Shown: one piece after another, positions 2,680 through 62,924 of the stretch
Numbering within the stretch: position 1 is the stretch's first letter
Layout of the letters: each line of letters begins with the position of its first letter
Virus record (IMG/VR): IMGVR_UViG_3300042691_033363
Coordinates: 1-62,924 of that record
Source: a virus
Reading direction: 5' to 3' (one strand)
DNA length: 62,924 bases
Notes under the pieces: generated by a model
The model's input: only the letters and a program-made list of their open reading frames with translations
The model's database searches: none
Told to the model about the DNA's origin: nothing
Position numbers and translations under genes: made by a program

Positions 2680-2687
2680 TTAGTATA

Positions 2688-2784
2688 GCTAACGTTTTGC
2701 GTATATGTGCAGTACGCAGGAACGAAACCTTAAATTAACAACAAATGCTTATTAGCGTATTGCACATATACGCTGTTAGGTGCT
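2688..2784 (+). repeat. attC-like palindromic site, upstream copy
   Basis: A long imperfect palindrome bounded by GCTAAC (2688-2693) and GTTAGG (2775-2780), matching the integron core-site consensus RYYYAAC...GTTRRRY. Inside, 2699-2717 and 2755-2773 are inverted copies of 19 bases with one mismatch. The roughly 37-base centre is AT-rich. The site starts 8 bases after the DnaA-like gene. It could also act as a bidirectional terminator between converging transcripts, but it lacks a U-tract. Confidence 0.6.
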
Positions 2785-2799
2785 GTAAAAAATAATTAT

Positions 2800-2979
2800 A
2801 TGACAATATTTAAATTTAAAAACAAAACAAGAGAATTAAGGGTGTGTTTAAAAAGCCGAAAACACACTAACCATAATTGGTATAAAAGAACTGAAATTGG
2901 TGGCACTTTTGCACCTAAAACAATCGCACATTCTTTCGGCTTTTTGTGGTTAGGACGAATTATTTTTTATTGCACCTAA
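2800..2979 (+). CDS. Small hypothetical protein in a cassette-like unit
   Basis: A 59-codon frame starting at an ATG 23 bases after the upstream GTTAGG core site and ending in a TAA that lies inside the downstream core site (2977-2979), the arrangement typical of integron cassette genes. The protein is basic at the N-terminus (MTIFKFKNKTRELR), then 'NWYKRTEIGGTFAPKTIAH' and a hydrophobic-aromatic end 'GFLWLGRIIFY'. I do not recognise the family. Base composition is AT-rich compared with the polymerase gene. No promoter is seen, so expression would depend on readthrough from the replication genes. Confidence 0.5.
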   Translation: MTIFKFKNKTRELRVCLKSRKHTNHNWYKRTEIGGTFAPKTIAHSFGFLWLGRIIFYCT

Positions 2980-3044
2980 CAGTCGTGTAGGCGCAGTTGA
3001 TACGGTTGGATCTGTTTAAAATTGCGCCTACGCTTTGTTAGCGG
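2972..3044 (+). repeat. attC-like palindromic site, downstream copy
   Basis: The second core-site pair: GCACCTAAC (2972-2980) and GTTAGCGG (3037-3044), with an inner stem GTAGGCGCA (2987-2995) pairing with TGCGCCTAC (3023-3031) and an AT-rich centre. The left core is the exact complement of the right core of the upstream site (CTGTTAGGTGC at 2772-2782 against GCACCTAACAG at 2972-2982, 11 bp), as expected for the two ends of one mobile gene cassette. It ends 20 bases before the terminase stop. Confidence 0.6.
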
Positions 3045-3063: not shown

Positions 3064-4902
3064 TTACTTCTCTAGCCTGACTTCTTTCCAAACTCGAACA
3101 GACTTTCCATCTATGAGTTCAATCATAGGTATTTTCTTGGTCACGAATTCTGCGGTATTCGTTTCTCGTTTGGATTTCTCAATGATCTGCCGGTGGTAAA
3201 TCTCGCACGATACCATGGCATCCACGATGTCAGTGTTATCGGCCAGATAGTTCTTGGCCTCTTCGATTATTTCGATGAAGTAAACGCCTTCGTAAAACTT
3301 ACGAAAGTAGTCAATGATATATGCGTTTGCTCTTTCGCCGGTATGGTCATTCTTGTACCAACCATACGATCGTTCCCCGGATATGAATGTTTTGCCTAGC
3401 AGTGTAGGCCGGGGTGCCAGCAAATCCAAACGGTTGTGATTCTTGTAACTATCGACAATCACACCGCCTCGGTTTACTTCTATCATTACTTTGGCATGGC
3501 CGTAGTAATCTTGAAGTAAGATATTGTTCCGCATGATGATATCTGGATCCAATGCTCTCTCTTTGTAAAAAGCCACATATCGGTTTGTGTCGATATTCTT
3601 TATAACGATACAGTTGTCCGAGCCGTCGTTCAGCTTTGAAGATACGAAGGGTATTGGATCCATTCCGGCAATGTATTTGTGCAATGGATTGTATCTCTCT
3701 AAGATAATAATCTTTCCTTTGTTGATTGGCACTACATCGACTCTCTCTTCGTGCATGTCTCTTACTAGTTCGCACTTTTCTATTGGAGGCGGATTCCCCA
3801 GGATAATTCTTTCCTGATGCTGCAGTTTGCTCATCACATCTGCCGGCATCGCCCCTTTGGCATTCGCTGCAAACACTTCCTGGATATCCAACGGATACTG
3901 TTTGATGAATGACTCTAGGTGCGACTTGTCATCCAGCTTGTCCAGGTTCTCCCTGGTTTTGTGAATCCACTCAGTAGCCAACTTCTCATCGCTATGGCCG
4001 TTGGGGCAGAAGTTCAATATCCTGCCGGTTTCCCTTCCCTTGTCGTCGAGTTCCGGGGCCGACATAATGCCCATCCACCCCGGCAAGAACACAGTCAGCA
4101 TTTTGATGGTTTCTGCATTCTTCCAGAGTTCAGCACCTTTCTTCTGACCAATGACTGAAGATTCACCGGCACTTCCCCCCATTACGATAGGAGCCACTTT
4201 GGTAAAACCAGACTTTGTTGAAGCTTGGGCGGACCGGTGTACCACATCGGCTTTGGGGTGCAAGAAGAATTCGTCTAGAAAAATGTGCATTGCACGAAAT
4301 GCTTCGAGCGAAAATGGAGAGTCCACAGTATCCCTGGTGATGATTTTTGAATCCAGTCCTGAGATTGCACCGGTTTTGTTGTCCAAGATACCCATGTGCA
4401 GATATCCACTTTGGCGTGTGGATATGATGGCCGGACGAATAAATTCATCTAGCCCGTCAAAGATTACACGAGTCTTGTCCTTGTACATTTCCTCTAACCT
4501 TGTTTTGTCGGCAGAGGTCAGTAGCGAAGTGGAGCCGGGGTTTGTCAGAGCAATCCATACCGGTATCACGCCGCCGAATGTCAATGACAAACCGGCTTCT
4601 CGTCGCTTTGTTACCATCAAGTCCCAGTATGTTTTCCGGGCGTTGTCGTAGGCTCCGTAAATCAAATCGTCCAAGTCACGCCAAACCGGCCTTATCCTGC
4701 GGCCAGTTGCTTCTTTGATTGTGGCCTGAGTCAGAAAGAAGTACTGAGCCCCCGTCAAACCAAACCTTCCATCTATCCAATACTCGTTCGTTTCCTTCCC
4801 CCACCAGAGTTCTTTTTCTTTTCTAGTGGCGTTTGGATTGAGCGCATGCTTTGCGGCCCATTTATCGTAAACGAATTTGGAAGATTGCGGTTTGATTATC
4901 AT
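3064..4902 (-). CDS. terL: Terminase large subunit
   Basis: The DNA-packaging motor ATPase and headful or site-specific nuclease, 612 residues. The N-terminal ATPase carries a non-canonical Walker A region 'TKRREAGLS' (98-106) and Walker B 'MHIFLDEFF' (205-213, Asp210-Glu211). The RNase H-like nuclease begins at 'YIAGMDPI' (Asp415) and closes with 'DNTDIVDAMV' near the C-terminus, giving the acidic metal ligands. Unusually it is the last gene of the late arm, about 38 kb from the portal gene on the map. Its start overlaps the stop of the preceding 106-residue gene (ATGA), suggesting translational coupling. Confidence 0.9.
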   Translation of the reverse strand: MIIKPQSSKFVYDKWAAKHALNPNATRKEKELWWGKETNEYWIDGRFGLTGAQYFFLTQATIKEATGRRIRPVWRDLDDLIYGAYDNARKTYWDLMVTKRREAGLSLTFGGVIPVWIALTNPGSTSLLTSADKTRLEEMYKDKTRVIFDGLDEFIRPAIISTRQSGYLHMGILDNKTGAISGLDSKIITRDTVDSPFSLEAFRAMHIFLDEFFLHPKADVVHRSAQASTKSGFTKVAPIVMGGSAGESSVIGQKKGAELWKNAETIKMLTVFLPGWMGIMSAPELDDKGRETGRILNFCPNGHSDEKLATEWIHKTRENLDKLDDKSHLESFIKQYPLDIQEVFAANAKGAMPADVMSKLQHQERIILGNPPPIEKCELVRDMHEERVDVVPINKGKIIILERYNPLHKYIAGMDPIPFVSSKLNDGSDNCIVIKNIDTNRYVAFYKERALDPDIIMRNNILLQDYYGHAKVMIEVNRGGVIVDSYKNHNRLDLLAPRPTLLGKTFISGERSYGWYKNDHTGERANAYIIDYFRKFYEGVYFIEIIEEAKNYLADNTDIVDAMVSCEIYHRQIIEKSKRETNTAEFVTKKIPMIELIDGKSVRVWKEVRLEK

Positions 4903-14313: not shown

Positions 14314-17300
14314 TTACTCGAATTGTAAGCCCTTCAATACATCACCTTTTTGTTCTACCTTTTTTTCTGTTGGCTTTGCAGTCGGCTTTGCTTGAACTTG
14401 CGGTGTAGTTTGCGTTTGCTTGCCGCCTTCGAATTCCAAGTTAGAGATAGAACTTTCGAGATTTTGTTTATTGGTTGTAGCATCCCCACCAACAGTTTTG
14501 GTACTTACATTTCCATTGTATTGTTTTAAGTCTTCAATTACTCCAGTAGCAAAGTTTTTAAAGTACAAAGGATCGCTGAAAACTTTAGATGTCAATGATC
14601 TGTCGGCTGCGTAAGGCTGCATTTTTTCTATTTCTGTTGGCTTGTACACGATCGTTTCGGTATCGAGCGTTTGACCGCCATATGTTTTCCCTGGCAAACT
14701 GGCCAGCAGACTTTTGCGTTCTGTTTCGATTAGTTGATCGTATTTTCGACGGTCAGTTTGGTACAATTTCATGCGCTCATCGTCAATCATTGTCCATTCG
14801 GCTAACATTGTCATGCTGTCGGCTGCTCGGTAAAGGTCGTTAAGTATATTTCCAAGCACTTCATATCCTAACAGTGTGCCAGGTTTTTTGCCGTACTTTG
14901 GCCCGTTTGTATCAAAATCGTAATTATATTTTGACTCCAAATCTATTAATTCTTTGTACAGACCATTATTGATGAGGTTTTCTTGTATCAGTTTTCTTCT
15001 AGTATTGGCGTTGAATACCAACAAGTTATTATATTGTTCATTGCTCAACTTATACTTATTCCCCATATTATCCATGAGTTGTTTGGGCATTTGCGAAGGA
15101 ATTGCACCCCAAACATCTCCTTTTTTACAAGCCAAATATACAAGCGATTCCCAGTCTGGGGTTTCATATCCTGCTACACCTCTTGTTGCCTTTGTAACAT
15201 CAAATGTGTTGTACAGAATGTGTCCGAGCGATGCGCCTTCTGGTGTCTGAAGCACCGGCTTACCAAATGCATCTACTTTTACCGGCATGTTAGTCAACTC
15301 AGACTCAATGAAAGGCAAATCGACTAGTTTATCTGTTGCTCCAATTGGCCAGCGTTCTGACATCTTAATAGCCAACTTTGTGAAGAAAGTTGTGAGGAAC
15401 GGATCTTCTACTTTTATTCCGAATGCTTTGAATGCTGGAGCATCTTTGGCATCGTAATCCACCAGATATTTGCGATTCATTTTGTCAATCCAAGCAGTAG
15501 AGTTTGGTACCAACGCCGCAGATAATGTCAATACAACATCTCCCAGACCATTGGCAAGCTTGTTGTCATCTTCGCTGTCTGCAATTGTTTTTGCAACATT
15601 GCTTACACCTCTCAAGAATGTTTGATCGGCGATGTAACTGCCGGCAGCACTGTAGTTGCCAAACATAGAAGAGAAGAAATCTTCCGATGCAGCTTCAACA
15701 ATTCCACGGTTTGCAAATTTGGCTTTTTCTGGCTCTCTTCCTTTACCTTCTTTGAATTGTGTATAGATTGCAGCACCAAATATACCAAAGCCACGGTAAT
15801 CGATAATCAAGTCATTCTTCATGTCCCACAAGCCGGATGCTCTAGACTTGTCGCCTCTCAGTGCGGCCCGAAGCAATGTAACATTTATGCTATACGGTCT
15901 TTCTAAAGAATAGGTATAGGTCATAGACTTTTGCTTGTCTTCCTCGTTTTCGTCCTGGGGAGAACCAGATACTGCTCCTGATTCGAAGAATAACCTTGCT
16001 ATGTACTGAACCCCCATCCCAACGAGAGCCCTAGCTAATATCCTATCCACATCTCTTGCGTCGCTGATTTCCTTTTCGTGCGAAACTTCTCCCTGTTTGG
16101 TTTTCTTTTTGATTTTTCTATAGCCAACCCGACCTATTTTCAGAAGGGCATATTCCGGAATCAAAAACTCAATAAGTTCGATAGCGTAGTTCGTTGGAAT
16201 TTTTGTAAATGGAATAACGCCCACACCAACGAGACGAGCAACCTTGGATATAAATTTACCATTGACTTCCTCAGATGTGTATTGCCTTCTTGTTTTGTCT
16301 ATCAACTCAGTTATTTTGTTCTCATTTGAATACACAAATCGCAATGCTTCGGCGTTTGCTGGAGCATTCCCGTAGTCAGAGTTGATGACAATGTAGGCTT
16401 CTCTCATTTTATTGAGTTGCTCTTGCAAATCCTTTTTCTTAGAGCCAGAAGCGGTTTTAATCTCCGCGGTGAGCTTCTTATATGTTTCTGAAAACTTGAA
16501 TTGCTCTGAAACTGCATAATAGTATGCGAAATCACGGAAAATAGCGTCACCGGCACCCAGTGTTCTAAACATAATATCCGCCGTTATACCAAATGTTCCC
16601 TGCAGTGCAGTAATTAACTGTTGTTTTTTACTGATTTTTCCAACTTCGTTGAGACGAAATCCAAATTTCGATGCAATTTCTTCGTTAGTCAAATCGTTTT
16701 TACCTATTGCTCTAGCAGCAAGTGTAGTCCACAGTTTAACAGTTTTGCCTAGGGATTTGAAAGAACTCCAGCCCAAGATGAATGCCGTGGGGTTGTCGTA
16801 CGATTGTACCACGGTTCCATTCTTAATGATTCTCCATGCTTTTCCAACGCCTTTTGGCATGCCATATGAAACTCCGGACCACCAATCTTTCAGTGATTTT
16901 TTAGTTGTGGCCTCAGTTTTAACGCCAGTAACGATACCTTTGACTTTTGCCGGTATTGCACTTATAATCGAACTGAGCGGATCCACGGCGAGACCAGTTA
17001 TGAATTTCACGAAGTTTGATACGATGTTTACCGAAGTCGACATCGGTGTCATCAAATTGCCTTTTACCAAACTAGCAAATGTGTCAGTAACCGATGTGGG
17101 ATCTTCATATTTTGCACGAAAATTCACTAGGTTTTCGATAGCCTTCTGATAATCGTTGTACATCTTTTGGTTGTACTCCAAATTGGTCATATTCTTATCG
17201 AACTTAGAAATACCATACGGATCAGCCTCTGCGGCCTGTTTGCTTGTTTTGTACTGATCTTTCAGTTTATCCACTTCGATAGCCAGCGTTTCAATCTTTT

Positions 17301-20300
17301 TCTTAGCATCGTCTGGAAGTGTCAGTCCCTTTTTCTCCATTCGTCTGAACATTGCTCTGGCGTTGGTCAAGAAACTGTCTTTGGTCAACATTCTGAAAAG
17401 CTGTAACATATTGCCCACAACACTGCCCATTTTCAATATTCGAGCGTATGCTTCTCGAATTGCCTCCGGATCAGCGTTTGTTTGTTTTGCTTTTATTAAG
17501 TCTTGGATTTCTTTGTACAAAATAACATCGCCGCTTGCCATTGTATCTTCTAATGTCTGAAGCATTACAGGATAGTCCATGGGATCGATATTATCCAGCT
17601 CGTCAATCAGTGCCTTTTGGTCACGAATTGTCCTCATTGCTTCAACTTCGTTTTCAAATACATCAGCCTCTTCTTTGAACAAACCGCCGGCTTGTTGTTT
17701 TTCGATATTGGCTCTTTGGCGAAGTGCGAAGTAATCTTGCAAATCAACCGGATCAAAACCATTTTTGAGAAGTGCTGCGTAAAGTTCTTCGTCAGTTATT
17801 CCTTTGAACTCAGGATTGTTTTTGATTCCATCGATAAATCCTGCAATGTCCATCATAATATCCTGACCTGGTGCAACGCCTGATTTCGGTTGTGCTGTAG
17901 TTTTAGCTTCGCCCAACATCGCGTCGTAAATGCGGCGCATGGGTTCGCTCAGAGTGACATCAATTTCGCTTCCTGCGATTGAGCCGTAAATGTAAAGCAT
18001 CCATTTTTTGAAGTCGTTGAAAATCTTTTGGAGTTTGGAACTCGGTGCCATGCCGGTAGCTAGGTATTTTTCAAAGCCGCGAGCAAAGTGCTCCGATGTC
18101 TGTCTAGTCCAAACATCATGACCAACTGCATCCAGGAACGCTTGCCTTTCGTCGGCAGTTAAAAACTTTTCGCGTACATGCGCCAATTCATGCATAGCTG
18201 TTGAAATGTTCGGGTTGGACAAAGCAAACATGATTGTTTTACCGGTGTCCATATTTACTGTGGCCCCAGCTGCTCCTGCTGCATCTCTTTGGAACATGGC
18301 CATACCTTCGGCAACTTTATTCTTTGCCTCTGTGTTCAGAGCAATAGTCAGAAAATCTGGGTTCGGCACGAAGAATTTCAATCTTTCCTTTGCGTAAAAG
18401 GCATCTTTTATTTTGTCAAATTCTGCTTCTACTTCCTTAACAGATTTTCCTGTAACATCTACATTGGCTTCTTTTTTTATGGCGTTTACTATTGTATCCA
18501 ATCCAACAGCAGAAACATAATCATTAAAATCACCAAGTTGATTCATGTAATTGAAAAGAGGCTGAATCTCCGGATTCAGCTGATCAACTGTGGGCACATA
18601 GCGTGCTAATCTAGTCCTGGTAACTTCAAATCCAAGTTGTTTTTGCAATGCTCCGATTTGCTTAGGAACAATGACATTGTAATAATTATTGATACCAGAC
18701 ACTTTTCCAGAGAACGCAGTATCTAGTTCAGAATCAGTCGGAGTCATCTGCAATACAGACGGGCCGATTAACGCAGGATCAGTGAGTACGATTTTAGATA
18801 CACCTTTGTCTGACGCAACACTCATTAACTGCTTCAATACAGTATTGGTAAATGCGTCAGTAGAAGGAACGGGAGTAGTCTTTCTACTTTCTGCCATGAC
18901 CTTATCTACAACTGCTTTATAATCAGCCTTGATTTGATCGGGTAGAGTCGGAAATAACTTCTTTTCGAAATGGTTAATCACCTCTTCAATCATATTATCA
19001 GGATCATTTGCTAAATCATTATAATAATCCTGTAGTGCATCTATTTCATTCTGTGAAGCTCCGCTATCAATCCGCGCCTGGATTTCTTCATCTGCTATTT
19101 TGTCAAATATTTCACCAATCGTTCTGAATTTACCATATGGTTGCTCTTTGAGAATGAATTCATATTTTGCCTTTCCGCCTCTGTTTCTTAAATCTTGCGT
19201 TTGATCTGATTGTATTTCATGTACATACAATACTGTATCTCCAAATTCGTCAATAGCAATTTCTGTTCTCGCGTGAGCCAATATGTAATTTGGATTGTGA
19301 GTCCAGTGCTTTCTATTGAAATTCTCTTGAATAAAGCTGTTTCTTTGATCTACTAAATCAGATAATTTCGCTTCAATGCTATTGGGATCCATCACTCCAT
19401 ATTCCGTGCGTTGTGGATCGGTAGTTTCGGCTAATTTTTGCAGAAGTTCGTTAATTTTTCCATTAATGTCTTTGATATAAGGATGACTGGAAATTGGGAT
19501 TGTTAATAAATGTTCTTCATATGTATCTGGCAATGCCGCGCCCTGAAGATTGCCGCGGTATTGACCATAATCTTCAGCTTCATCTTTTCTATCTAGTTCG
19601 CCTTTCATTTCGACATATATCTTGACGAAATCTTTGAGAGACGATTTTTGCTCAGCACTCAGTGGAACAAACCCTTTATCTTTTCCGACGATTTGCTGAA
19701 TGTCGCCGATTGTCTTTTTCAGTGCGGCAAATTCTTTGGTACCTATGTACTTTTCATAAATTGCCAGTTCGGTTTCATCCACAGTAGCCAAGTCTACGAA
19801 TTCGAAATTGCCATCTGTAAAGCTTACATAGATTCCGCCGATTTCGGGCAAAGGTTTGCCGGTCAAATCCATAGTTCTCAAATCCTGCCACCAAGCAGCT
19901 TGAACTCCCGATGCCGGTTTCCTTGTTGGGCTGATGTTGTTTACAATGTAAACATTTTCTACGATTCGAGCTTGTCTTTCTGAAAAAGCATCGTATGAAA
20001 TCAATCTCGGTCGACTTGTAGCCCAGTCCATCAATTGTTGTCTGGTAACTTCTTCTCCTTCAATGCTGTTCAAAAATTCATCAATGCCCATGAATTCCAG
20101 TTCAGCCTTACGCGCTTCAAATCTGTCTTTTGCTAATTTTTGTTTGACATCCGATTTCTTTTCTTTTGGTTCTAACTGCGCGATGGCTACAGTAACATTG
20201 TTGTAAAATGCTGTTCCGATATTTCTGTGGTAAGCATTTCGCAACTCCATCATTTTCATTTGCTTTAGTTTGTCGTCAGCTATTTCCTTTGTACCTTTAC

Positions 20301-23300
20301 CTTTTGTCCCTACTGTTGGATCCGCAAAAACTGAGGCCGCAGAACCTTTGAATAGTTCCGGAGCTTCTTGATACTTTTGGTACTTGAAATTAAATTCTCC
20401 CTCTGTCATCAAGCCACTATCCACAAGGTTTTTGCGGAGTTGTTCTTTGGTGAATTCGGAAACAGGCTTGTACGCATCGAAAATACCGTCCATGTAAGCA
20501 TCGATGCCGGGGAACATTTGATAGTACATCTGCCTATTTGTAGTATCATCTGCAACGACATCCTCTTCGATTATCTCTCCTACTTTTCTACTGTCTAGTT
20601 CTCGGATAGTATCAACTTCATTGGCTATCCAATCCAACAATTGTCCTGCAGATTCTGCGTCGAAAGTCAAAGTTTCTGGGTTGCGACGAAGCGAGTAGAA
20701 CTGACCATCTTCTGTAAAACCCTCATCTGTGCCATAATTCAATGCATCTTCAATAGATTCAATTATCCTGTTTATTTTCGAAAATTCTGAAATGAAACTA
20801 GTATAATTGAATGTACCACCATAGTATCTGCCTGCCTCAATAGTTGATTTCAATTCTTGTAAGCTTTCAACAACTTCCTTTGCCATCTTTTTCTCTTTCG
20901 CTGTAAAGTTGTTGTCTTGCTGATATGCTTCAAGTGCAGCAATGGCTGCATCAAAACTATTCATTATGTCTGTTTGATTGTCTTTGACATAATCTGTTGC
21001 CTCTGTAATTTGAGCCGGACCGGCAAATGCGCGAGCTACATTTGGATCAAACTCATACGCAAATTGTTCATCCATAATTTGCGAATCAGTAAGTTCTGCC
21101 AACCTTAAAGCAACATTCAAAAACGCATTCATGTCTTCGCCACTTTCCCTCATTTTCGTAAGGTGGTCAGACACTTTGTTTTTGAATTCTACTACTTCCT
21201 GATTCGAAAGACCATATGCAATAGCCAATCTATCAATCGCTGTGCTCTTGGTCAGATTTGTCACATTGCTGTGATACAGAATTTTTGCAATGTCTGAAAA
21301 CAAACTACGGTACTGAGAGAATTGGAAAATTGCCTTGTCTGTATAGAAATCCAAAATGTCAGTAACCATGTTGGCCTGGGCAGCTGTCAATTTGTTATTG
21401 GCCTGTAATTCTTTGGCTGCAGTTCTGATTGCTGTGGGCGATACAAAGCGACTCGAAGGCGGAGGAGTGTACTCGTTTTCGAGGAACTGTGCACCTTTAC
21501 GCATTGCGCGAGTAATACCGGCTTGCAGCTCGTTGGGGTTCTTCATTGTAGCCAAATTGATAACTACATCGCCTGGACGCTTTCCTTCCTTGCCCGGTTG
21601 TGTTGACGAATAAGCGTAGTTGGGAACAAATCTGAAAGCTGGGGTTCCAGGTTCATCCACAAATCTTACAGTGGCCAACTGCATATCAGGATAGGTCCTG
21701 TAGAAATCTTCATCCTGCATCAACTCTGACAAACTGAATATCAATTTCTCAGTCTTGAATTCTTCGGAACGAGGGGTTCTACCGAGTATGCGAGAATAGA
21801 CACGCTTGACTTTCTGATTGAAAGTCATTTCTGTTTCTCTGCGAGACTTAACCGCTTCGTATACAGCTTCAATGATATCTGTAAATTTCTGTGTGTACTC
21901 GTCTCCCTTACCCATGACGCTTCCGGTGTAAACCGGATTACCATCGACATCGAAAGAAACGCCAGTCATAAGCTGAATGCGTGCAGGATCCATGTTCTTG
22001 TCACGCAGTTCCATTGCTTTGTTGACATCAGCTGCGATTTGTTCTGGAGACAAGTTGTTCTGGAAGAACGGTACCAAACCTGGGTTCGTGTTGAGCCACT
22101 TGTTGAACTCTTCTTGAGTCATCTTCTTGACTTCAATCATGTTCTTCATGTACTCGTCCAGAGTCATTCCAATTCGCTGTGCGTTTGACTCGAACATTCT
22201 TACCGCTAAATCGGCGTATGCTTTGCGCTGAGTTTTGAGCCAGCGTTGTTTAAATGGGTTTTTGGTTTTGAGGCCCCAGATGTTTGACGCTTGTCTGTTC
22301 AGTTCCTTCTTCCACTTTGTCCTTACTGCATCATTGAGTTTTCTTCTTTCAACTGCTTCGTTGAATTTGGGTGCATCCACAGAAGATTCAGCCTTTTGTT
22401 TGGCTTCGTTTTGAATCTGGTCTGGAGTTTTGTTTTCAGTATCAATTCCTAAATTCTTCAGATAATCTTCAGCAGTGATTTCATTTCCGAGAAAACGGAT
22501 TCCATCCACTTGCTCTACATCTACACCTTGTCCTGTATCCGCCAGCAGTCCAGCAATTTCGTTTCTTCTCGTTTGCTCTTTTGCTACATCAGCAGCCTGC
22601 TTGTCCATGTCGGTTTTTCTCATCTTGGTTGTGATGGTAGCCATCGGAGTAACAAGAGAGAATTTTTCAGTTTGGTTAAATGATGAGGCCCCAGTATATT
22701 TTACAGCAACAAAATTGTTGAAATCTTTTCTTAAATCTTGGAAAGATTGTATCGCTTGTGTGTCATTTCCAAACAATTCCTTGATTTTGCTTGTTTTATT
22801 CAACAAAAGGTTAGCCACTAGGTTATCTACAGCATCCTCTTGCGTCAATGTTCCATCGTCCACAAACTTCTTGTATGTATCCGCGAACAAGCGCGAACGA
22901 CTCACCGCTGCTCTGAATTTGTCCAAGTTATTGGGCTTTCTTTGCATAATGTCGGTGCCGGTATTCGGATCAACACCGGTTTTTGTGAACAGTGTGCTAT
23001 CGAAATCGTACAACAAAGGCGCGATGTAGTCGGCTACCTTGGCATACTTCTTACGCACATTGTTGGTTATCATTGCTTTGCCGCCAGAAATGAATGACGA
23101 CAAGTTGACTTTTATTTTGGAACCAATTCCCTTGGATAGCGCAGTGATTACTTTTTTGGCCGGCGCGGAACCTTCGTCCACATTGTCTGCTTTGCCGGTA
23201 AACAATGCGATTGTCTGCTTTGCGTTTTGTGCAAACTTGCTTTGATATTCTGTGCTTGCAGAAGCCGATGCTTTGTCAGTTCGCTCCTTCTTTCTGCGTC

Positions 23301-26300
23301 CACTCTCATTCTGCGTTGTTTGATAAAGAACTTTTCCTTCTGCGTCGTTTTTCTTTTCTTGGACTTCGCTGATGCCTAAGTTTTTACGGGCTATGGTCTC
23401 AGCCTTGTCTCTTGCTACTATGCCGTTCTCTTGAGATTTGGTCTCTACAAAGTCTCTGGTTTTGTCGTTTAGAACTACGAATTCGTCGGTCGTAGATGTG
23501 AGGCCCCGTGCTTCAAGTTTGCCGGTTTCCGCGTTGTATCGGTAAACTACTTTGTTGTCTACAACTCCATCTTTTCCAGCCACATAAAACTCTTCCCCGA
23601 TATTTCCGGTACGCTTCTCAACAACGACTTCATTGTTACCAACAGAACCACTCGCACCATCGGTGGTACTCGCACGAAGGTTGTTCGGTACATCCGGTTC
23701 TGTCATGTTCACAGTATAATCAACCGGAATAGTGTTCGGTGAAGTAGTCTGATTGATGTTAATGGGAGCAGCTGCTGCAGTTATACCTGATGGCATATTT
23801 TCATCCCAATTGCTGTTCTTGATGGTTCTGTCGAGCAAATCCAGAATTTCCTGGTCGGTCTCAGATGGTTCGCCGCCATAAACATTGTCTATGTGCTGCT
23901 GGAATGCCTGTCTAGTACCAAATACAATTTTTAAGTTTTCAAGGTTTGCAGCGGAAAATGTAAAACACATGATAGCCGTTGCTCTCAGGTTAAGTAGCCT
24001 TTCGTCTTCGGTAGTTCCAAATGCATTCTTGGCCGCATCAACAAAATCAAATCCGTTTTGCTTTGCGTACTGCCAGGTGTTAGAAAATGCTTCTTCTGTG
24101 AACGCTGCTGCTCCACCGGAAACAATTCTTCCTGCGGTGTAAAACAACTGCGCTATTTTGCTAGTGCCAATTATTTTTCCAACTGGCAAAATTCCTGTAG
24201 TTTTATCGTATAGACCAGATCCAATAGCTTCGGCAACACCCATTCCCCCTTCTTGTCCTGCTACTTCGTATGAAAAAAATGGTACACCTACTTTGGTGAC
24301 TGCTTTTTCAACGGCATTAAATACACCGATTCCAGTTTTACCATAACGATCACCCATGTACGAACGGATGAGCATTGCATTTTGACCTGTGAAAATGTCT
24401 TTTGCTGCCTTTGTTACTCCTTTGGTAGATAGTGCAATCAGTGCCGCGGCTTTTAGTGACTCCAATATCCCTTCTCCGATCATTGCGCTTTCTTGTGCCT
24501 GTTCTACTCTATCTCTCACGCTTTGTGGAACATACATACCATTGTTAGTAAAGAAGTTAACTGCAGATTGCAATTCCTCGTGGGGAGTCAAAAATGTTTC
24601 TTCTGATATGGCACTCTTAATTTGTTTTGCAGCAGCAGAAGTAAAATTGCCAAATATTCCTTGAGTGTCGTTTTTGAAAGTATCTACATTCAAGTAGATT
24701 ATTTTATTAATTGCTTTAAGTTGTGCTTCGGTTTCAGCAATCATTTTATTTCTTTGAATTTCTCGGTACAATTGTGCCTTAGAAACAATCTTTCCGTCTC
24801 GTATTTCATCTTCAATTGAAATGGCAAACATTCGCGCTGCTTTGTTCAAAAATGACCTGTTCGCTTCAATTTCTGAATCAACTTGTTCCTCAGACAAATT
24901 CAACGGAACTTTAGAATCTACTGGCATTTTCTTATACCAATCTAAAAGTGCATACAATGTATTACGCTTGTCTTTCAATGTACCTAAGTCAGTCTTTTTC
25001 TCCTTTGCTAAAGTTTTATCGTAAGTGGTTTTGGCCAATGTTTGAGCTTCGCCGTCGAGTCTACTTCCTGTTTCGCTGAAAAACTCTACAGGTTGCAAAT
25101 CCAAACGCTTTTTTATTTCTGCAATTTGCAACTGCAACTTTTGTACTTTCTGGAGTTGGTCTGGCTTCAGTCTCGGTAAAGGAGCTTTGAAGTCTCTATC
25201 TGCTGTTGCGTAAATTTCACGAACTTGGTCGTACAAATCAGCGATTGTTCTTTCATCCGGTGTCAAATCGCTTAATGCACGATTTTCCATTTCAACATCG
25301 TAGTTGAAAATTGTCTTGCCGGTTTCCGGATCCACATAGGAACCTTTGTTTAACTTGTCGCCTTGGTATTGCTTTTGGACTATTGAGTTGATATACTTCT
25401 TCTTGTAGTAATCAAGTCTCTCGTCAAGCATACCTCTATCGCCCAACCCTGTAGCAGCCAGTCGCTTTTCGAGTTCGGTGTAGTTCAAATCAAGTTTGCT
25501 CCCTGCAAAATCGGGATCATTTATCGTGTAGCTGAAAGCATTTCCTAATTCGTTTTCGTACACAATTCTGCCCAAGTCTTCCTCGGTAAGTCCTGCGACT
25601 GTTGTTTTGCTTCCGTCATTTACTGTGGCGTTCTGGCCGAGGAAGTTTTTGGCCACGGTGTCATCGGCTTTTGCTTCGACTAGTCGCTTGTTTTCTTCTA
25701 GGTTTGCAACTACTGCGCCGAACTGAGCGAAGTCGCTCACAAATACATTACTACCTTCTAGTATTTTTTGTGCGCTCTCGAAGCCGCCATTCTTGATTTG
25801 TGCTTTGTACTTGATACCATACGCATCGCGGTTAATTGGATCCATAAGGTATTTGTAGTAGTCTTCGTAATTGTCAATTGTGTCTCCGTTAGCAGTTTTG
25901 TTCAGTCCCTTTTCTACAACTAGGTCGAACTGCTGTTTGGCCTGGTACTGTCTCTGCAGTATGTTGTTTTGAACTGCAGCGTCGCTTGGGAGCATTGGAT
26001 TAAACTCAGGGCGGTAGCCAAGTTCTCCAGGGGCTATGGGTTTCCTTCCGAATAGCGGATCGAAAATAGTTCCTACCCCTAGACCAGTGAATGCACTATA
26101 CGATGTTTTGAATTTCTCTTTGTCGGAAGATGAGAGGCCCCCGGCCAAAACATTTCTGAAATCATCTTCGGTTCGAATCGACTTGCCAAAATATTGGTCG
26201 ATTTGAGAGCCAAAAGTCATGTAAAAATTGTGTATGTTGTTTTTATCTGACAGGTATGTATCAAGTTCTTCAGCAGACTTGATTGTACTACCCATGCCCA

Positions 26301-26808
26301 AATCAATTACATTGTTTTTGTTCTTCAGCGTTGTGAACAAATTTTCAATGTTCATGTAGGGATTCGACTTAGCTATTTCATCGAGTTCTTTTTTTCTGTC
26401 TTCTATCGCTTTGTCTTCTGCCTCCTGTTCTTTTGTCGCTTTTGCTAAACCAGCTTTGAGTTCGGTTTCTAAGGTTTTGAATTTCTCTTGAACTTTTTTT
26501 ACTGTTGCCTCGTCAAATTTTGCTCCTGTTTCGGGTGCTTTTTTTATGAAGGTTTCTCCTTCTTTAAATTTTATTGTTGGCGCAATTCCAGTTTGAACTT
26601 TAGCTGCTTCTGTCCAATCGACTCCCCCAGTTGTAGGTGTTACTTTTGGTTTCACAGGACCACCATTGCCGGTAGGCGTTTCGTATGATTTTTTTAACTG
26701 TGCAACGACACCCCAATCTTCGTTTTCTTTTGCTTTTCCTAAGAAACCTGTATTGATTTTAGCCTCTTCCTTTTTAGGCTGGGAACTCAGTTTTTTATCT
26801 TCTGGCAT
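14314..26808 (-). CDS. Giant polyvalent virion protein (4164 residues)
   Basis: One frame of 12.5 kb, a fifth of the genome. The N-terminus (1-800) is charged and helical. Hydrophobic segments lie near 780-890 ('SLKAAALIALSTKGVTKAA'). About 2499-2530 reads 'HWTHNPNYILAHART'...'HEIQSDQ', the HW-N-HxR/E-QSD signature of a large polyvalent-protein domain, continued near 2706 by 'NNYYNVIVPKQIGAL'. A zincin-type site 'HELAHVREKF' lies near 2873 with 'SEHFARGFEKY' about 30 residues on. Around 3255-3700 come membrane-like and 'DAIFRDFAYYYAVS', 'PFTKIPTNYAIEL' segments typical of the C-terminal half of such proteins. Polyvalent proteins are thought to be packaged and ejected with DNA. No RNA polymerase motif is visible. 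Confidence 0.85.
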   Translation of the reverse strand: MPEDKKLSSQPKKEEAKINTGFLGKAKENEDWGVVAQLKKSYETPTGNGGPVKPKVTPTTGGVDWTEAAKVQTGIAPTIKFKEGETFIKKAPETGAKFDEATVKKVQEKFKTLETELKAGLAKATKEQEAEDKAIEDRKKELDEIAKSNPYMNIENLFTTLKNKNNVIDLGMGSTIKSAEELDTYLSDKNNIHNFYMTFGSQIDQYFGKSIRTEDDFRNVLAGGLSSSDKEKFKTSYSAFTGLGVGTIFDPLFGRKPIAPGELGYRPEFNPMLPSDAAVQNNILQRQYQAKQQFDLVVEKGLNKTANGDTIDNYEDYYKYLMDPINRDAYGIKYKAQIKNGGFESAQKILEGSNVFVSDFAQFGAVVANLEENKRLVEAKADDTVAKNFLGQNATVNDGSKTTVAGLTEEDLGRIVYENELGNAFSYTINDPDFAGSKLDLNYTELEKRLAATGLGDRGMLDERLDYYKKKYINSIVQKQYQGDKLNKGSYVDPETGKTIFNYDVEMENRALSDLTPDERTIADLYDQVREIYATADRDFKAPLPRLKPDQLQKVQKLQLQIAEIKKRLDLQPVEFFSETGSRLDGEAQTLAKTTYDKTLAKEKKTDLGTLKDKRNTLYALLDWYKKMPVDSKVPLNLSEEQVDSEIEANRSFLNKAARMFAISIEDEIRDGKIVSKAQLYREIQRNKMIAETEAQLKAINKIIYLNVDTFKNDTQGIFGNFTSAAAKQIKSAISEETFLTPHEELQSAVNFFTNNGMYVPQSVRDRVEQAQESAMIGEGILESLKAAALIALSTKGVTKAAKDIFTGQNAMLIRSYMGDRYGKTGIGVFNAVEKAVTKVGVPFFSYEVAGQEGGMGVAEAIGSGLYDKTTGILPVGKIIGTSKIAQLFYTAGRIVSGGAAAFTEEAFSNTWQYAKQNGFDFVDAAKNAFGTTEDERLLNLRATAIMCFTFSAANLENLKIVFGTRQAFQQHIDNVYGGEPSETDQEILDLLDRTIKNSNWDENMPSGITAAAAPININQTTSPNTIPVDYTVNMTEPDVPNNLRASTTDGASGSVGNNEVVVEKRTGNIGEEFYVAGKDGVVDNKVVYRYNAETGKLEARGLTSTTDEFVVLNDKTRDFVETKSQENGIVARDKAETIARKNLGISEVQEKKNDAEGKVLYQTTQNESGRRKKERTDKASASASTEYQSKFAQNAKQTIALFTGKADNVDEGSAPAKKVITALSKGIGSKIKVNLSSFISGGKAMITNNVRKKYAKVADYIAPLLYDFDSTLFTKTGVDPNTGTDIMQRKPNNLDKFRAAVSRSRLFADTYKKFVDDGTLTQEDAVDNLVANLLLNKTSKIKELFGNDTQAIQSFQDLRKDFNNFVAVKYTGASSFNQTEKFSLVTPMATITTKMRKTDMDKQAADVAKEQTRRNEIAGLLADTGQGVDVEQVDGIRFLGNEITAEDYLKNLGIDTENKTPDQIQNEAKQKAESSVDAPKFNEAVERRKLNDAVRTKWKKELNRQASNIWGLKTKNPFKQRWLKTQRKAYADLAVRMFESNAQRIGMTLDEYMKNMIEVKKMTQEEFNKWLNTNPGLVPFFQNNLSPEQIAADVNKAMELRDKNMDPARIQLMTGVSFDVDGNPVYTGSVMGKGDEYTQKFTDIIEAVYEAVKSRRETEMTFNQKVKRVYSRILGRTPRSEEFKTEKLIFSLSELMQDEDFYRTYPDMQLATVRFVDEPGTPAFRFVPNYAYSSTQPGKEGKRPGDVVINLATMKNPNELQAGITRAMRKGAQFLENEYTPPPSSRFVSPTAIRTAAKELQANNKLTAAQANMVTDILDFYTDKAIFQFSQYRSLFSDIAKILYHSNVTNLTKSTAIDRLAIAYGLSNQEVVEFKNKVSDHLTKMRESGEDMNAFLNVALRLAELTDSQIMDEQFAYEFDPNVARAFAGPAQITEATDYVKDNQTDIMNSFDAAIAALEAYQQDNNFTAKEKKMAKEVVESLQELKSTIEAGRYYGGTFNYTSFISEFSKINRIIESIEDALNYGTDEGFTEDGQFYSLRRNPETLTFDAESAGQLLDWIANEVDTIRELDSRKVGEIIEEDVVADDTTNRQMYYQMFPGIDAYMDGIFDAYKPVSEFTKEQLRKNLVDSGLMTEGEFNFKYQKYQEAPELFKGSAASVFADPTVGTKGKGTKEIADDKLKQMKMMELRNAYHRNIGTAFYNNVTVAIAQLEPKEKKSDVKQKLAKDRFEARKAELEFMGIDEFLNSIEGEEVTRQQLMDWATSRPRLISYDAFSERQARIVENVYIVNNISPTRKPASGVQAAWWQDLRTMDLTGKPLPEIGGIYVSFTDGNFEFVDLATVDETELAIYEKYIGTKEFAALKKTIGDIQQIVGKDKGFVPLSAEQKSSLKDFVKIYVEMKGELDRKDEAEDYGQYRGNLQGAALPDTYEEHLLTIPISSHPYIKDINGKINELLQKLAETTDPQRTEYGVMDPNSIEAKLSDLVDQRNSFIQENFNRKHWTHNPNYILAHARTEIAIDEFGDTVLYVHEIQSDQTQDLRNRGGKAKYEFILKEQPYGKFRTIGEIFDKIADEEIQARIDSGASQNEIDALQDYYNDLANDPDNMIEEVINHFEKKLFPTLPDQIKADYKAVVDKVMAESRKTTPVPSTDAFTNTVLKQLMSVASDKGVSKIVLTDPALIGPSVLQMTPTDSELDTAFSGKVSGINNYYNVIVPKQIGALQKQLGFEVTRTRLARYVPTVDQLNPEIQPLFNYMNQLGDFNDYVSAVGLDTIVNAIKKEANVDVTGKSVKEVEAEFDKIKDAFYAKERLKFFVPNPDFLTIALNTEAKNKVAEGMAMFQRDAAGAAGATVNMDTGKTIMFALSNPNISTAMHELAHVREKFLTADERQAFLDAVGHDVWTRQTSEHFARGFEKYLATGMAPSSKLQKIFNDFKKWMLYIYGSIAGSEIDVTLSEPMRRIYDAMLGEAKTTAQPKSGVAPGQDIMMDIAGFIDGIKNNPEFKGITDEELYAALLKNGFDPVDLQDYFALRQRANIEKQQAGGLFKEEADVFENEVEAMRTIRDQKALIDELDNIDPMDYPVMLQTLEDTMASGDVILYKEIQDLIKAKQTNADPEAIREAYARILKMGSVVGNMLQLFRMLTKDSFLTNARAMFRRMEKKGLTLPDDAKKKIETLAIEVDKLKDQYKTSKQAAEADPYGISKFDKNMTNLEYNQKMYNDYQKAIENLVNFRAKYEDPTSVTDTFASLVKGNLMTPMSTSVNIVSNFVKFITGLAVDPLSSIISAIPAKVKGIVTGVKTEATTKKSLKDWWSGVSYGMPKGVGKAWRIIKNGTVVQSYDNPTAFILGWSSFKSLGKTVKLWTTLAARAIGKNDLTNEEIASKFGFRLNEVGKISKKQQLITALQGTFGITADIMFRTLGAGDAIFRDFAYYYAVSEQFKFSETYKKLTAEIKTASGSKKKDLQEQLNKMREAYIVINSDYGNAPANAEALRFVYSNENKITELIDKTRRQYTSEEVNGKFISKVARLVGVGVIPFTKIPTNYAIELIEFLIPEYALLKIGRVGYRKIKKKTKQGEVSHEKEISDARDVDRILARALVGMGVQYIARLFFESGAVSGSPQDENEEDKQKSMTYTYSLERPYSINVTLLRAALRGDKSRASGLWDMKNDLIIDYRGFGIFGAAIYTQFKEGKGREPEKAKFANRGIVEAASEDFFSSMFGNYSAAGSYIADQTFLRGVSNVAKTIADSEDDNKLANGLGDVVLTLSAALVPNSTAWIDKMNRKYLVDYDAKDAPAFKAFGIKVEDPFLTTFFTKLAIKMSERWPIGATDKLVDLPFIESELTNMPVKVDAFGKPVLQTPEGASLGHILYNTFDVTKATRGVAGYETPDWESLVYLACKKGDVWGAIPSQMPKQLMDNMGNKYKLSNEQYNNLLVFNANTRRKLIQENLINNGLYKELIDLESKYNYDFDTNGPKYGKKPGTLLGYEVLGNILNDLYRAADSMTMLAEWTMIDDERMKLYQTDRRKYDQLIETERKSLLASLPGKTYGGQTLDTETIVYKPTEIEKMQPYAADRSLTSKVFSDPLYFKNFATGVIEDLKQYNGNVSTKTVGGDATTNKQNLESSISNLEFEGGKQTQTTPQVQAKPTAKPTEKKVEQKGDVLKGLQFE

Positions 26809-59340: not shown

Positions 59341-59693
59341 ACCCCAGGCCAAAGGAAAAAGTCAAACATCTATACATCAAGGTCAGCGGTCGTCAGAGAG
59401 AAGTTCTGAGGATCATGGCCGAGATGTATGGATATGGCTCGTACAACATTCTCATAGATGATTTGATTCACGCCCACCTCAACAAGAGCCGGCAGATGAT
59501 GATTGATACCGTGAGAGAATTGGAAGAAGGGCACACCGAAGTTCCGGTACATATCGCAGAGAACAACTACAAAGCATTCATCAAGTACTGCAATGCTCTG
59601 CATATCAACCCAAATACTTTGTTGATTCTCCTTCTTCGTCAGGCATCCGGGAAACTTGAGAAAATTAAAAACATCGAAAAACAAAAACTGTAA
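59337..59693 (+). CDS. Possible ribbon-helix-helix-type protein
   Basis: 118 residues from the ATG at 59337. 'KVKHLYIKVSGRQREVLRIM' and 'VPVHIAENNYKAFIKYCNAL' each resemble a beta strand followed by two helices, with 'NPNTLLILLLRQ' at the turn, as in ribbon-helix-helix DNA-binding proteins. It lies directly before the serine recombinase, so it could be its regulator or directionality factor. This is inference from shape. Confidence 0.6.
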   Translation: MNPRPKEKVKHLYIKVSGRQREVLRIMAEMYGYGSYNILIDDLIHAHLNKSRQMMIDTVRELEEGHTEVPVHIAENNYKAFIKYCNALHINPNTLLILLLRQASGKLEKIKNIEKQKL

Positions 59694-59694
59694 C

Positions 59695-60405
59695 ATGTAT
59701 CACCAACCAACCAAGATTAAACGGGCTGTGTATTACACCCGTGTATCACACGAAAACCAAGTCGACGATGGCTCATCGTTGGATAACCAACAAGACCGCA
59801 TCGAAGCATTCTGTAAACTGAACAACTACGAAATCGCAAAATCATTTTCGGATCCTGGGGTATCAGGTCGCAAGTTCGAAAACCGACCTCAATTCATGGA
59901 GATGATGGAACTCGTCAAACGCCGCGAGGTAGATGTCGTAGTTGTTTACTCTCTCTCTCGTTTTGGTAGAAATACCAAAGACACCTTGAAGTGGATAGCG
60001 TTTCTCGAATCCCATGGCGTGGCCTTTTACACTCTGGATTTTCAATTCGACACCACTACTTCGCACGGAAAACTCATGCTCCAAATGATAGCGGCCTTTG
60101 CTGAATTCGAAAGCAACCAGCGTGGCGAAATGATTTCATCTGTGATGAAGTATCTCAAGAAAGAAAAGAAAGTGTACTGCGGCCCGGTTCCCTTGGGCTT
60201 CGATAAAGTCGATGGCCAACTGATAGAAAACCCACAAGAGATGAACCTAGTCCGCAAGATATTCCTTTGGAACAAAGAAGTCGGTCCATTCAAAGCAGCA
60301 ATGTACGCTAATGAGAGTGGCTACCAAACAAAAAAGAATAAGAAATTTTGGACAACGACAATACAAAAAATTGTCAACAATGACCTTTACCAATCCTATC
60401 TTTGA
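59695..60405 (+). CDS. Serine site-specific recombinase
   Basis: 236 residues from the ATG at 59695. The catalytic domain begins 'RAVYYTRVSHENQ' (nucleophile Ser18 expected), then 'DPGVSGRKFENRP', 'VVVYSLSRFGRN' and 'GKLMLQMIAAFAEFESNQRG', all typical of the resolvase/invertase fold. A short second domain 'VPLGFDKVDGQLIENPQEMN'...'WTTTIQKIVNN' is the start of the Recombinase domain of large serine recombinases, but the zinc ribbon and coiled coil are missing. It could resolve multimers, invert a segment or integrate DNA. Confidence 0.88.
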   Translation: MYHQPTKIKRAVYYTRVSHENQVDDGSSLDNQQDRIEAFCKLNNYEIAKSFSDPGVSGRKFENRPQFMEMMELVKRREVDVVVVYSLSRFGRNTKDTLKWIAFLESHGVAFYTLDFQFDTTTSHGKLMLQMIAAFAEFESNQRGEMISSVMKYLKKEKKVYCGPVPLGFDKVDGQLIENPQEMNLVRKIFLWNKEVGPFKAAMYANESGYQTKKNKKFWTTTIQKIVNNDLYQSYL

Positions 60406-61436: not shown

Positions 61437-62924
61437 GTTTTCAAAGCGAGTTAGCGCGACTTGGTATTGATACCAAAGGGCATTTTACTGGATTGCATAA
61501 ACTGAATTGCCCTAGATGTTCGCATTCAAGAAAGAAGAAAAACGATCCTTGTCTTTCTGTCAACATTGATACCGGCGAATACAAATGCCATCATTGTCAA
61601 TGGAAAGGTAATGTGCGGAATGAGAAAAAGTACACTCGGCCCCAGCCGGCAGGACTCGACTTGGATGACAGCGTACTGGCTCATTTCGAAAGCCGGGGCA
61701 TCAGAAGAGAGACCGTTCAACACTTCCGTGTAACACAGAGCATTGAAACAATGCCCCAGGATGGCAAGAAGCACAAAACAATCAACTTCAATTACTTCCG
61801 GGGCGGAGAACTTATCAATGTCAAATTCAAGACAAGAGAGAAGTTTTTCAAAATGGTTTCAGATGCCGAGAAAATTCCGTACAATTACAACGGAATCCTC
61901 ACCGCTGACCAGATTATTATCTGTGAAGGCGAAGAGGAAACGATGTGTTGGTATCAGGCCGGCTACCCCTTCGCAGTTTCGTGCCCAAGCGGAGCCAGCA
62001 CGGGGAACAATAATCTGGAATGGCTCGATAACTCCTATCATCTCTTCGAGAACAAAAAGATTTTCCTTGCAACGGACAATGACCAACCAGGAAAGAAACT
62101 CGCAGAAGATATCGCTAGGCGTTTTGAACCTGAGAATCTGTTTCGCATCAACTTCGGAGACGAAAAGGATGCCAACGATATCCTCAAGAAGTACGGCGAA
62201 GCAAAGCTTGTCGAATTATTCAATGAAGCTAAGCCGTTGCCTATTCCGGAAATATCGTCTGTTGACGATTTCGAAGACCAACTACTCGACATTTACAATA
62301 GCCAGTACCCAAAGGGCGATGTTGTCGGATACCCCGAACTGGACAATCTAATTTCATGGCGCAGAGGGCAGTTCGTTGTCGGCTCCGGAATACCCGGCCA
62401 TGGCAAAACAACTTGGGTAGACCAAATATGTGTACGATTGGCCTTTCGTAAGAATTGGAAATTCGCCGTATTTTCTCCAGAAAACGACAATGTACTGAAA
62501 TCAATTCGCATGGCTGAGCAAATCTCAGGCAGACCGGTACACGGAGCCAACAGAATGTCAATCGACCAGTACCGTAAGGCTTTGAGCATGCTGAACCATC
62601 ACTTTAGCTTCTACGATACGGAGAGTCTAAACGACTATAAAATAGACAATCTTCTGCGAATAGGCAAAAGTCTAATTCGCCAAAAAGGTGTCGATTGTAT
62701 CGTGTTGGATCCATTCAATTACATCGACATCGACAGTGAGTCTGATTCTGGGAATGACAGAATTGGCAAGATGCTGGTAAAACTGAAGAAGTTTGCCAAG
62801 GTCAACAATGTTCTTATCATTCTGATAGCACATCCCAGAAAGATGCAGCGAGACAAGAATACTGGCGAGTACGAGATACCAAGGTTATACGATATCAGCG
62901 GCAGTCATCACTTCGCCAATGTTG
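61433..62924 (+). CDS. T7 gp4-like primase-helicase (continues at 1-308)
   Basis: The N-terminal 497 codons of a 576-residue protein. A CHC2-like zinc finger has 'CPRC' (Cys26, Cys29) and 'CHHC' (Cys52, Cys55). The TOPRIM primase part shows 'IIICEGEEE' (161-169) and 'LATDNDQPG' (212-220). The helicase has Walker A 'GSGIPGHGKTTW' (317-328) and Walker B 'VDCIVLDPFNYI'. It unwinds the fork 5' to 3' and makes primers for the neighbouring family B polymerase. The gene crosses the map origin in frame. ATGA overlap with the preceding gene. Confidence 0.93.
   Translation, partial: MSFQSELARLGIDTKGHFTGLHKLNCPRCSHSRKKKNDPCLSVNIDTGEYKCHHCQWKGNVRNEKKYTRPQPAGLDLDDSVLAHFESRGIRRETVQHFRVTQSIETMPQDGKKHKTINFNYFRGGELINVKFKTREKFFKMVSDAEKIPYNYNGILTADQIIICEGEEETMCWYQAGYPFAVSCPSGASTGNNNLEWLDNSYHLFENKKIFLATDNDQPGKKLAEDIARRFEPENLFRINFGDEKDANDILKKYGEAKLVELFNEAKPLPIPEISSVDDFEDQLLDIYNSQYPKGDVVGYPELDNLISWRRGQFVVGSGIPGHGKTTWVDQICVRLAFRKNWKFAVFSPENDNVLKSIRMAEQISGRPVHGANRMSIDQYRKALSMLNHHFSFYDTESLNDYKIDNLLRIGKSLIRQKGVDCIVLDPFNYIDIDSESDSGNDRIGKMLVKLKKFAKVNNVLIILIAHPRKMQRDKNTGEYEIPRLYDISGSHHFANV
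62856..62924. repeat. Terminal direct repeat, right copy
   Basis: Exact copy of 1-69. Removing one copy gives a circle of 62,855 bp with an intact helicase frame. Confidence 0.9.

Follow-up and report, generated by a model that had tools for sequence, protein, structure and literature searches.

A 262-bp unit at positions 2776-3037 (+ strand) of the window, the whole 62,924-nt stretch of viral DNA analysed here, is very probably a genuine integron gene cassette in a crAss-like phage, where it forms a two-site CALIN, defined as at least two attC sites and no integrase. Integron gene cassettes are movable one-gene units that are shuffled by bacteria. A first-pass annotation of the window had proposed an integron-cassette-like unit in a phage at this place, a proposal that would be undermined by the lack of any match to an attC model or by the presence of the block as a fixed terminator in all relatives. 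Both points were tested with outcomes in its favour, and the proposal is supported.

The record (IMGVR_UViG_3300042691_033363; 62,924 bases) carries a 69-bp direct repeat at its two ends (1-69 and 62856-62924), from which it follows that the genome is complete and circular, with a length of about 62,855 bp; distances between genes are therefore read around the circle. The sequence over the end join is collinear with that of a relative, G001. The portal protein matches PHROG 6547 and is distantly like those of the crAss-like phages cr60_1 and cr4_1 (21-24% identity), and a 453-aa protein gives a weak match to a crAss capsid model (E 0.02); on the strength of these two proteins we assign the phage, putatively, to the crAss-like phages from the environment, and a Bacteroidota host is likely. 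A single 4164-codon frame at 14314-26808 occupies 12.5 kb, one fifth of the genome, and has no PHROG match.

The unit sits at the convergence of two genome arms, as had been noticed at first pass. The left arm ends in a DnaA-C-like gene (2161-2679, +; PF08299, E 4e-8) that stops 7 nt before the left attC site, and the converging right arm ends in the gene for a conserved 612-aa protein (3064-4902, −); 384 nt separate the two gene ends (2679 and 3064) and contain two palindromes. The 612-aa protein has no family match in Pfam or PHROG, and a protein scan found at least 49 viral relatives of it, up to 87% identical; a terminase label for this gene was rejected, a supporting family match being absent. 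The fastest-changing gene beside the insertion is the DnaA-C-like gene, which is only 34-41% identical to its counterparts in near relatives, as against 61-75% for the polymerase and 81-87% for the 612-aa protein, and which may be a replacement hot spot.

Two adjacent sites in the same orientation (+) account for the palindromes. The left site, attC1 (2687-2781), comprises R'' AGCTAAC (2687-2693), a GTTTT spacer, L'' (2699-2717), a terminal loop, L' (2755-2773) and R' GTTAGGT (2775-2781), with the cut between 2775 and 2776; its palindrome arms (2699-2717 and 2755-2773) are complementary at 95% over 19 nt. The right site, attC2 (2974-3043), is the cassette's own and comprises R'' ACCTAAC (2974-2980), L'' (about 2984-2998), L' (about 3020-3033) and R' GTTAGCG (3037-3043), of which TTAGCG belongs to the downstream DNA; here the palindrome arms (2987-2998 and 3020-3031) span 12 nt and are 92% complementary. 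RYYYAAC and GTTRRRY ends had been ascribed to both palindromes. This is exact for the inner cores of the two sites and partly true of the outer ones: R'' of attC1 departs from RYYYAAC once, outside the invariant AAC, and R' of attC2 departs from GTTRRRY twice, outside the invariant GTT. A match between the outer cores (GCTAAC...GTTAGC), considered as proof of a once-intact attC1, was dropped, as five of its six letters are generic core.

With the G^TT cut the cassette runs from 2776 to 3037, and both the coordinates and the anatomy first read from it proved right. A predicted 59-codon frame (P0001, 2800-2979, +), co-directional with the polymerase/DnaA-like arm, starts after a short leader of 24 bases, its ATG at 2800 being the 25th base of the cassette, and its stop codon TAA (2977-2979) falls within R'' of the downstream site. 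The cassette's own ends are exact complements over an unbroken 11 nt (CTGTTAGGTGC / GCACCTAACAG), again as first described. The published range for such complementarity is 9-11 (PMC2727003), and the roughly 50 cassettes that we compared, all from Bacteroidota with IntI, mostly have 8-14 nt. The G+C content of the cassette is 0.34, and 0.29 up to the second R''; that of the phage is 0.41-0.44 (4-kb steps).

The suggestion that the bottom strand be folded gave a canonical attC structure for attC2 and a less regular one for attC1. In the attC2 fold (z -1.92), a 6-bp R stem (8 bp if the circle is closed) is followed by an unpaired central spacer of about 3 and 2 nt, 3 bp, a 2-nt bulge and 7 bp; the bulge lies on the R''-L'' side, the expected place for extrahelical bases. 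The class 1 attC sites aadA2 and cmlA, folded side by side with it, show the same order of elements. In attC1 (z -3.95) the stem is long and has no extrahelical base; one G.T pair of the top strand becomes an A.C mismatch in the bottom strand, and the unpaired central spacer is lopsided, with 5 nt on one side and 1 on the other. The missing extrahelical base and the lopsided spacer make attC1 atypical. In attC sites without extrahelical bases the choice of strand is weaker, and recombination is not abolished (PMC2727003). The bottom strand is less stable than the top strand in both window sites, which we do not hold against them because 43 of the 62 sites collected next to IntI in Bacteroidota behave likewise. 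The L''/L' arms of attC1 and attC2 share the motif CGTRTA(N)2YGCAGT...ATTGCRC, which fits membership of both sites in one attC family.

To gauge chance, the window was scanned for R''-stem-R' arrangements. The two top-scoring hits were attC1 and attC2, at 21.5 and 15.0 and both on the + strand; the best score in 30 dinucleotide shuffles was 15.5. We then imposed a pair rule: the two sites had to share a strand, and the unit's own ends had to be complementary over 8 nt or more. One pair in the window qualified, as against none from 300 shuffled strands and none from 1.46 Mb of viral DNA at other loci; we take the arrangement to exceed chance. In a positive control the scanner missed most genuine attC arrays, as it favours bulge-free stems, and it therefore serves as a chance control rather than a detector. 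An Rfam search gave no match above threshold. Copies of the attC were also sought by pattern: the L''/L' motif returned 7 stretches, all of them chance, and the R-core pattern CACCTAAC...GTTAGGTG returned 120 viral stretches, nearly all of them chance; a stricter version of the latter found 4 stretches in the genome collection. Neither a matching attC sequence nor a matching cassette was present in the bacteria or phages searched. Two other viral contigs carry almost perfect palindromes with CACCTAAC/GTTAGGTG or GCCTAAC/GTTAGGT at their ends (L066, 17-94; L069, 5458-5522).

An independent model of the site was built from Bacteroidota integrons. Matches to TIGR02249 (IntI) over the curated cut-off were found in 105 of 395 genomes, about a quarter of a phylum-wide sample whose identity as Bacteroidota is supported by the T9SS sorting-tail family in all 12 genomes checked. 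The sole complete integron named in Bacteroidetes proper in a 2022 survey of complete genomes is that of Salinibacter ruber M1 (PMC9024848). Arrays of attC adjoin IntI genes of our sample (L207-L226), and more attC sites lie on other contigs (G154, G198, G037). From 62 attC sites gathered around the IntI genes, 34 were aligned to give the covariance model R1, which thus holds IntI-adjacent Bacteroidota sites only and excludes the window sequence. The stem of the alignment has 98.5% paired cells, and its covariation is 0.235, against 0.008-0.096 with the partners slid. A mixed model of class 1, Bacteroidota and TJE1 sites was dropped because MAFFT failed to line up the L arms of both groups. 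With filters off, the highest R1 score anywhere in the 63 kb fell to attC1 (2687-2781, +), at 20.3 bits (E 0.0066); second place went to a hit of 11.2 bits. The attC model match on which the first-pass reading depended was thus obtained for the left site. The R1 score for attC2, 6.6 bits, is the best of that site's 521-bp stretch and is not significant alone. Among known sites, R1 picked out one from the CALIN region of TJE1 (1462-1519; 24.7 bits) and the site of the arr-3 cassette of a class 1 integron (26.3 bits), and it missed most other class 1 sites.

The body of the cassette is less ordinary. An inverted repeat at its 5' end (2773-2797, +), which includes the R core, pairs at 92% over 25 nt with a partner (2958-2982, −) that lies upstream of R'' and includes it. 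Over this longer stretch the end complementarity reaches 20/22, exceeding all of the about 50 real cassettes (best 18). Inverted repeats are nested within the unit (2776-2797/2958-2979, 2850-2861/2934-2945 and 2867-2876/2944-2953), a direct repeat, TTGCACCTAA, occurs at 2909 and 2970, and the body folds better than its shuffles (z about -4). An ordinary cassette does not need a nested-palindrome body, and this body, like the overlong end complementarity, counts against one. The self-complementary body may be an AT-rich accident, or it may reflect a structured element rather than a protein gene. The 20/22-nt end repeat, inner inverted repeats and strong fold would also suit a MITE, or another small transposable element of that sort, comprising 2776-2979, with 22-nt inverted ends around a nested palindromic body. 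We consider this very unlikely: inspection of the sequence beside the outer cores shows no target duplication, the second palindrome falls beyond the limits of this supposed element and yet has the same R core, no second copy was found by the R-core pattern (in viral contigs and the genome collection) or by P0001, and the attC features would be left unexplained.

Searches for relatives of the 59-aa predicted product found none in contigs of viruses or genomes, in phages or plasmids, or in Pfam, PHROGs and NCBIfam. The proposed search for the protein or the site in Bacteroidota yielded weak matches in 395 genomes (best E 0.008 per genome), which we regard as background. The most attractive of these, L245, was rejected, the frame there being antisense to an apparently real gene. 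Our best guess is that the product is most likely dispensable cargo.

The comparison with related phages, also proposed at first pass, found the cassette absent from all ten nearest relatives that keep both flanking genes. The flanking stops lie -38 to +51 nt apart in these ten and in one more relative, L013, and R1 recovered no site in 405 kb from 49 relatives, where its best score was 12 bits (E 4.1). The short gaps, and the lack of a site there by R1, lead us to read the block as an insertion that, among the relatives seen, is private to this phage. These data bear on the idea that the two palindromes are transcription terminators, a terminator block between converging operons that resembles attC sites by chance. 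Converging genes often share terminators, so the position fits; attC hairpins may act as weak terminators (PMC9892861); and in relative L002, whose 612-aa protein is 87% and polymerase 75% identical, the 27-nt gap holds a terminator-like hairpin, a stem-loop followed by T-rich sequence (TGGAGAGGTTGGTTACCTCTCCATTTTTATTT). Terminators are nevertheless a highly improbable account of the window. A terminator scan calls none at 2687-3043, and neither stem is followed by a T run; in most relatives the gap is too short for such a block; the block is missing from all ten nearest relatives and is thus not a fixed terminator of the group; and the 262-bp unit, the complementarity of its own ends, the G^TT boundaries, the stop within the core and the attC model match would all go unexplained.

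As the first-pass annotation had stated, no IntI-type integrase is visible. TIGR02249 and PF00589 (tyrosine recombinase) have no match in the complete circular genome or in the tested relatives, and the phage thus lacks the intI gene of a complete integron. A serine recombinase of 249 aa (59656-60405), with a resolvase domain and the start of a Recombinase domain, had been placed 57 kb away; that distance is an artefact of reading the record as linear, and on the circle it is about 5 kb from the cassette. It is present in 6/6 relatives searched (60-81% identity), among them L002, L003 and L006, which have no cassette, and for this reason we class it among the core genes rather than as a partner of the cassette. 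That the unit is a segment inverted by this nearby enzyme is scarcely credible: 25-nt inverted repeats do flank 160 bp and the enzyme does carry a resolvase domain, but its occurrence in relatives without the unit points to another job, and the G^TT cores of the attC pair lie at the middle of the repeats.

A genuine gene cassette, probably acquired by the phage from a host bacterium, could have arrived in two steps; their order is inferred, no relative with attC1 alone having been found. In the first, an attC-bearing piece with no definable left edge would have entered the convergent junction, by off-target action of IntI, one proposed route to CALINs (PMC8618304), or by illegitimate recombination, the other candidate for first entry (PMC9892861). 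In the second, to which the exact boundaries point, a circular cassette consisting of the small frame and its own attC would have been inserted by IntI into the R' box of attC1 at the G/TT cut, giving the order attC1-cassette-attC2. As the phage has neither IntI nor a tyrosine recombinase, the simplest source of the integrase would be an infected, integron-bearing host, probably one of the Bacteroidota, acting in trans. IntI recognises attC by its bottom strand in folded form, and phage DNA can expose this strand as it replicates. Once in place, the 59-codon frame would be read through from the polymerase/DnaA-like arm, and the phage can take the cassette into other hosts, where it could be cut out by the IntI of those hosts. 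A bolder and doubtful extension is that attC1 is a landing pad in a crAss-like lineage, at which host integrons would repeatedly load and swap cassettes at a neutral convergent junction during infection; were this so, phages would move cassettes into and out of the Bacteroidota pool.

Phage CALINs were described in 2023 by Qi et al., who found 17 among 10,705 phage genomes and tested those of the virulent phages Polaribacter P12002L, Tetrasphaera TJE1 and Pseudoalteromonas H101; IntI1 integrated five of six tested phage attC sites, two of them in TJE1 (PMC9892861). Like the window, these phages lack IntI and have paired attC sites whose cassettes are small or unknown; the host of one is a member of the Bacteroidota (PMC9892861). 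Our case differs in that the phage is seemingly crAss-like, that relatives show the uninterrupted junction, and that it is known from sequence alone; its attC sequences differ from those of TJE1 and P12002L. The chromosomal integron arrays of Bacteroidota (IntI-adjacent, L207-L224) have the R''-spacer-GCG...CGC-spacer-R' layout and own-end complementarity seen in the window, and the model built from such sites matches the left window site; unlike them, the window sites have no GACCC spacer and no GCGTTTAA/GCGCATAA stem, and the phage has no IntI. Class 1 attC sites (aadA2, cmlA, gcuF and others) share the fold plan, with attC2 showing 3 bp, bulge and 7 bp after the spacer, whereas the window sites are AT-richer, have another stem sequence and come with no resistance gene. 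A further parallel is IMGVR_UViG_3300020048_000285 (L080; whole contig L253, L254), a 39.9-kb phage of G+C 0.35 with an attC-like array and no IntI. Its attC-like sites lie within 1-1631 (110-173, about 520-582 and about 1243-1301; R1 at most 9.4 bits), and one of them shares the window's R core (CACCTAAC...GTTAGGTG) and its CTTTGTTAG end; it is, however, an unrelated phage, with a cytosine DNA methyltransferase (PF00145) and a protein of 105 aa as the products of its cassettes.

We found no paper in the literature searched linking attC sites to crAss-like phages; epsilon crAss-like phages have been searched for integrases with IntegronFinder, and none was found. Phage CALINs are already known, though from few phages, and to them the window adds a crAss-like, presumably Bacteroidota-infecting, environmental case, in the form of a concrete attC pair at a junction that relatives show uninterrupted. 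Together with the presence of IntI in about a quarter of the sampled Bacteroidota, it suggests that integrons and phages exchange cassettes outside the Proteobacteria as well.
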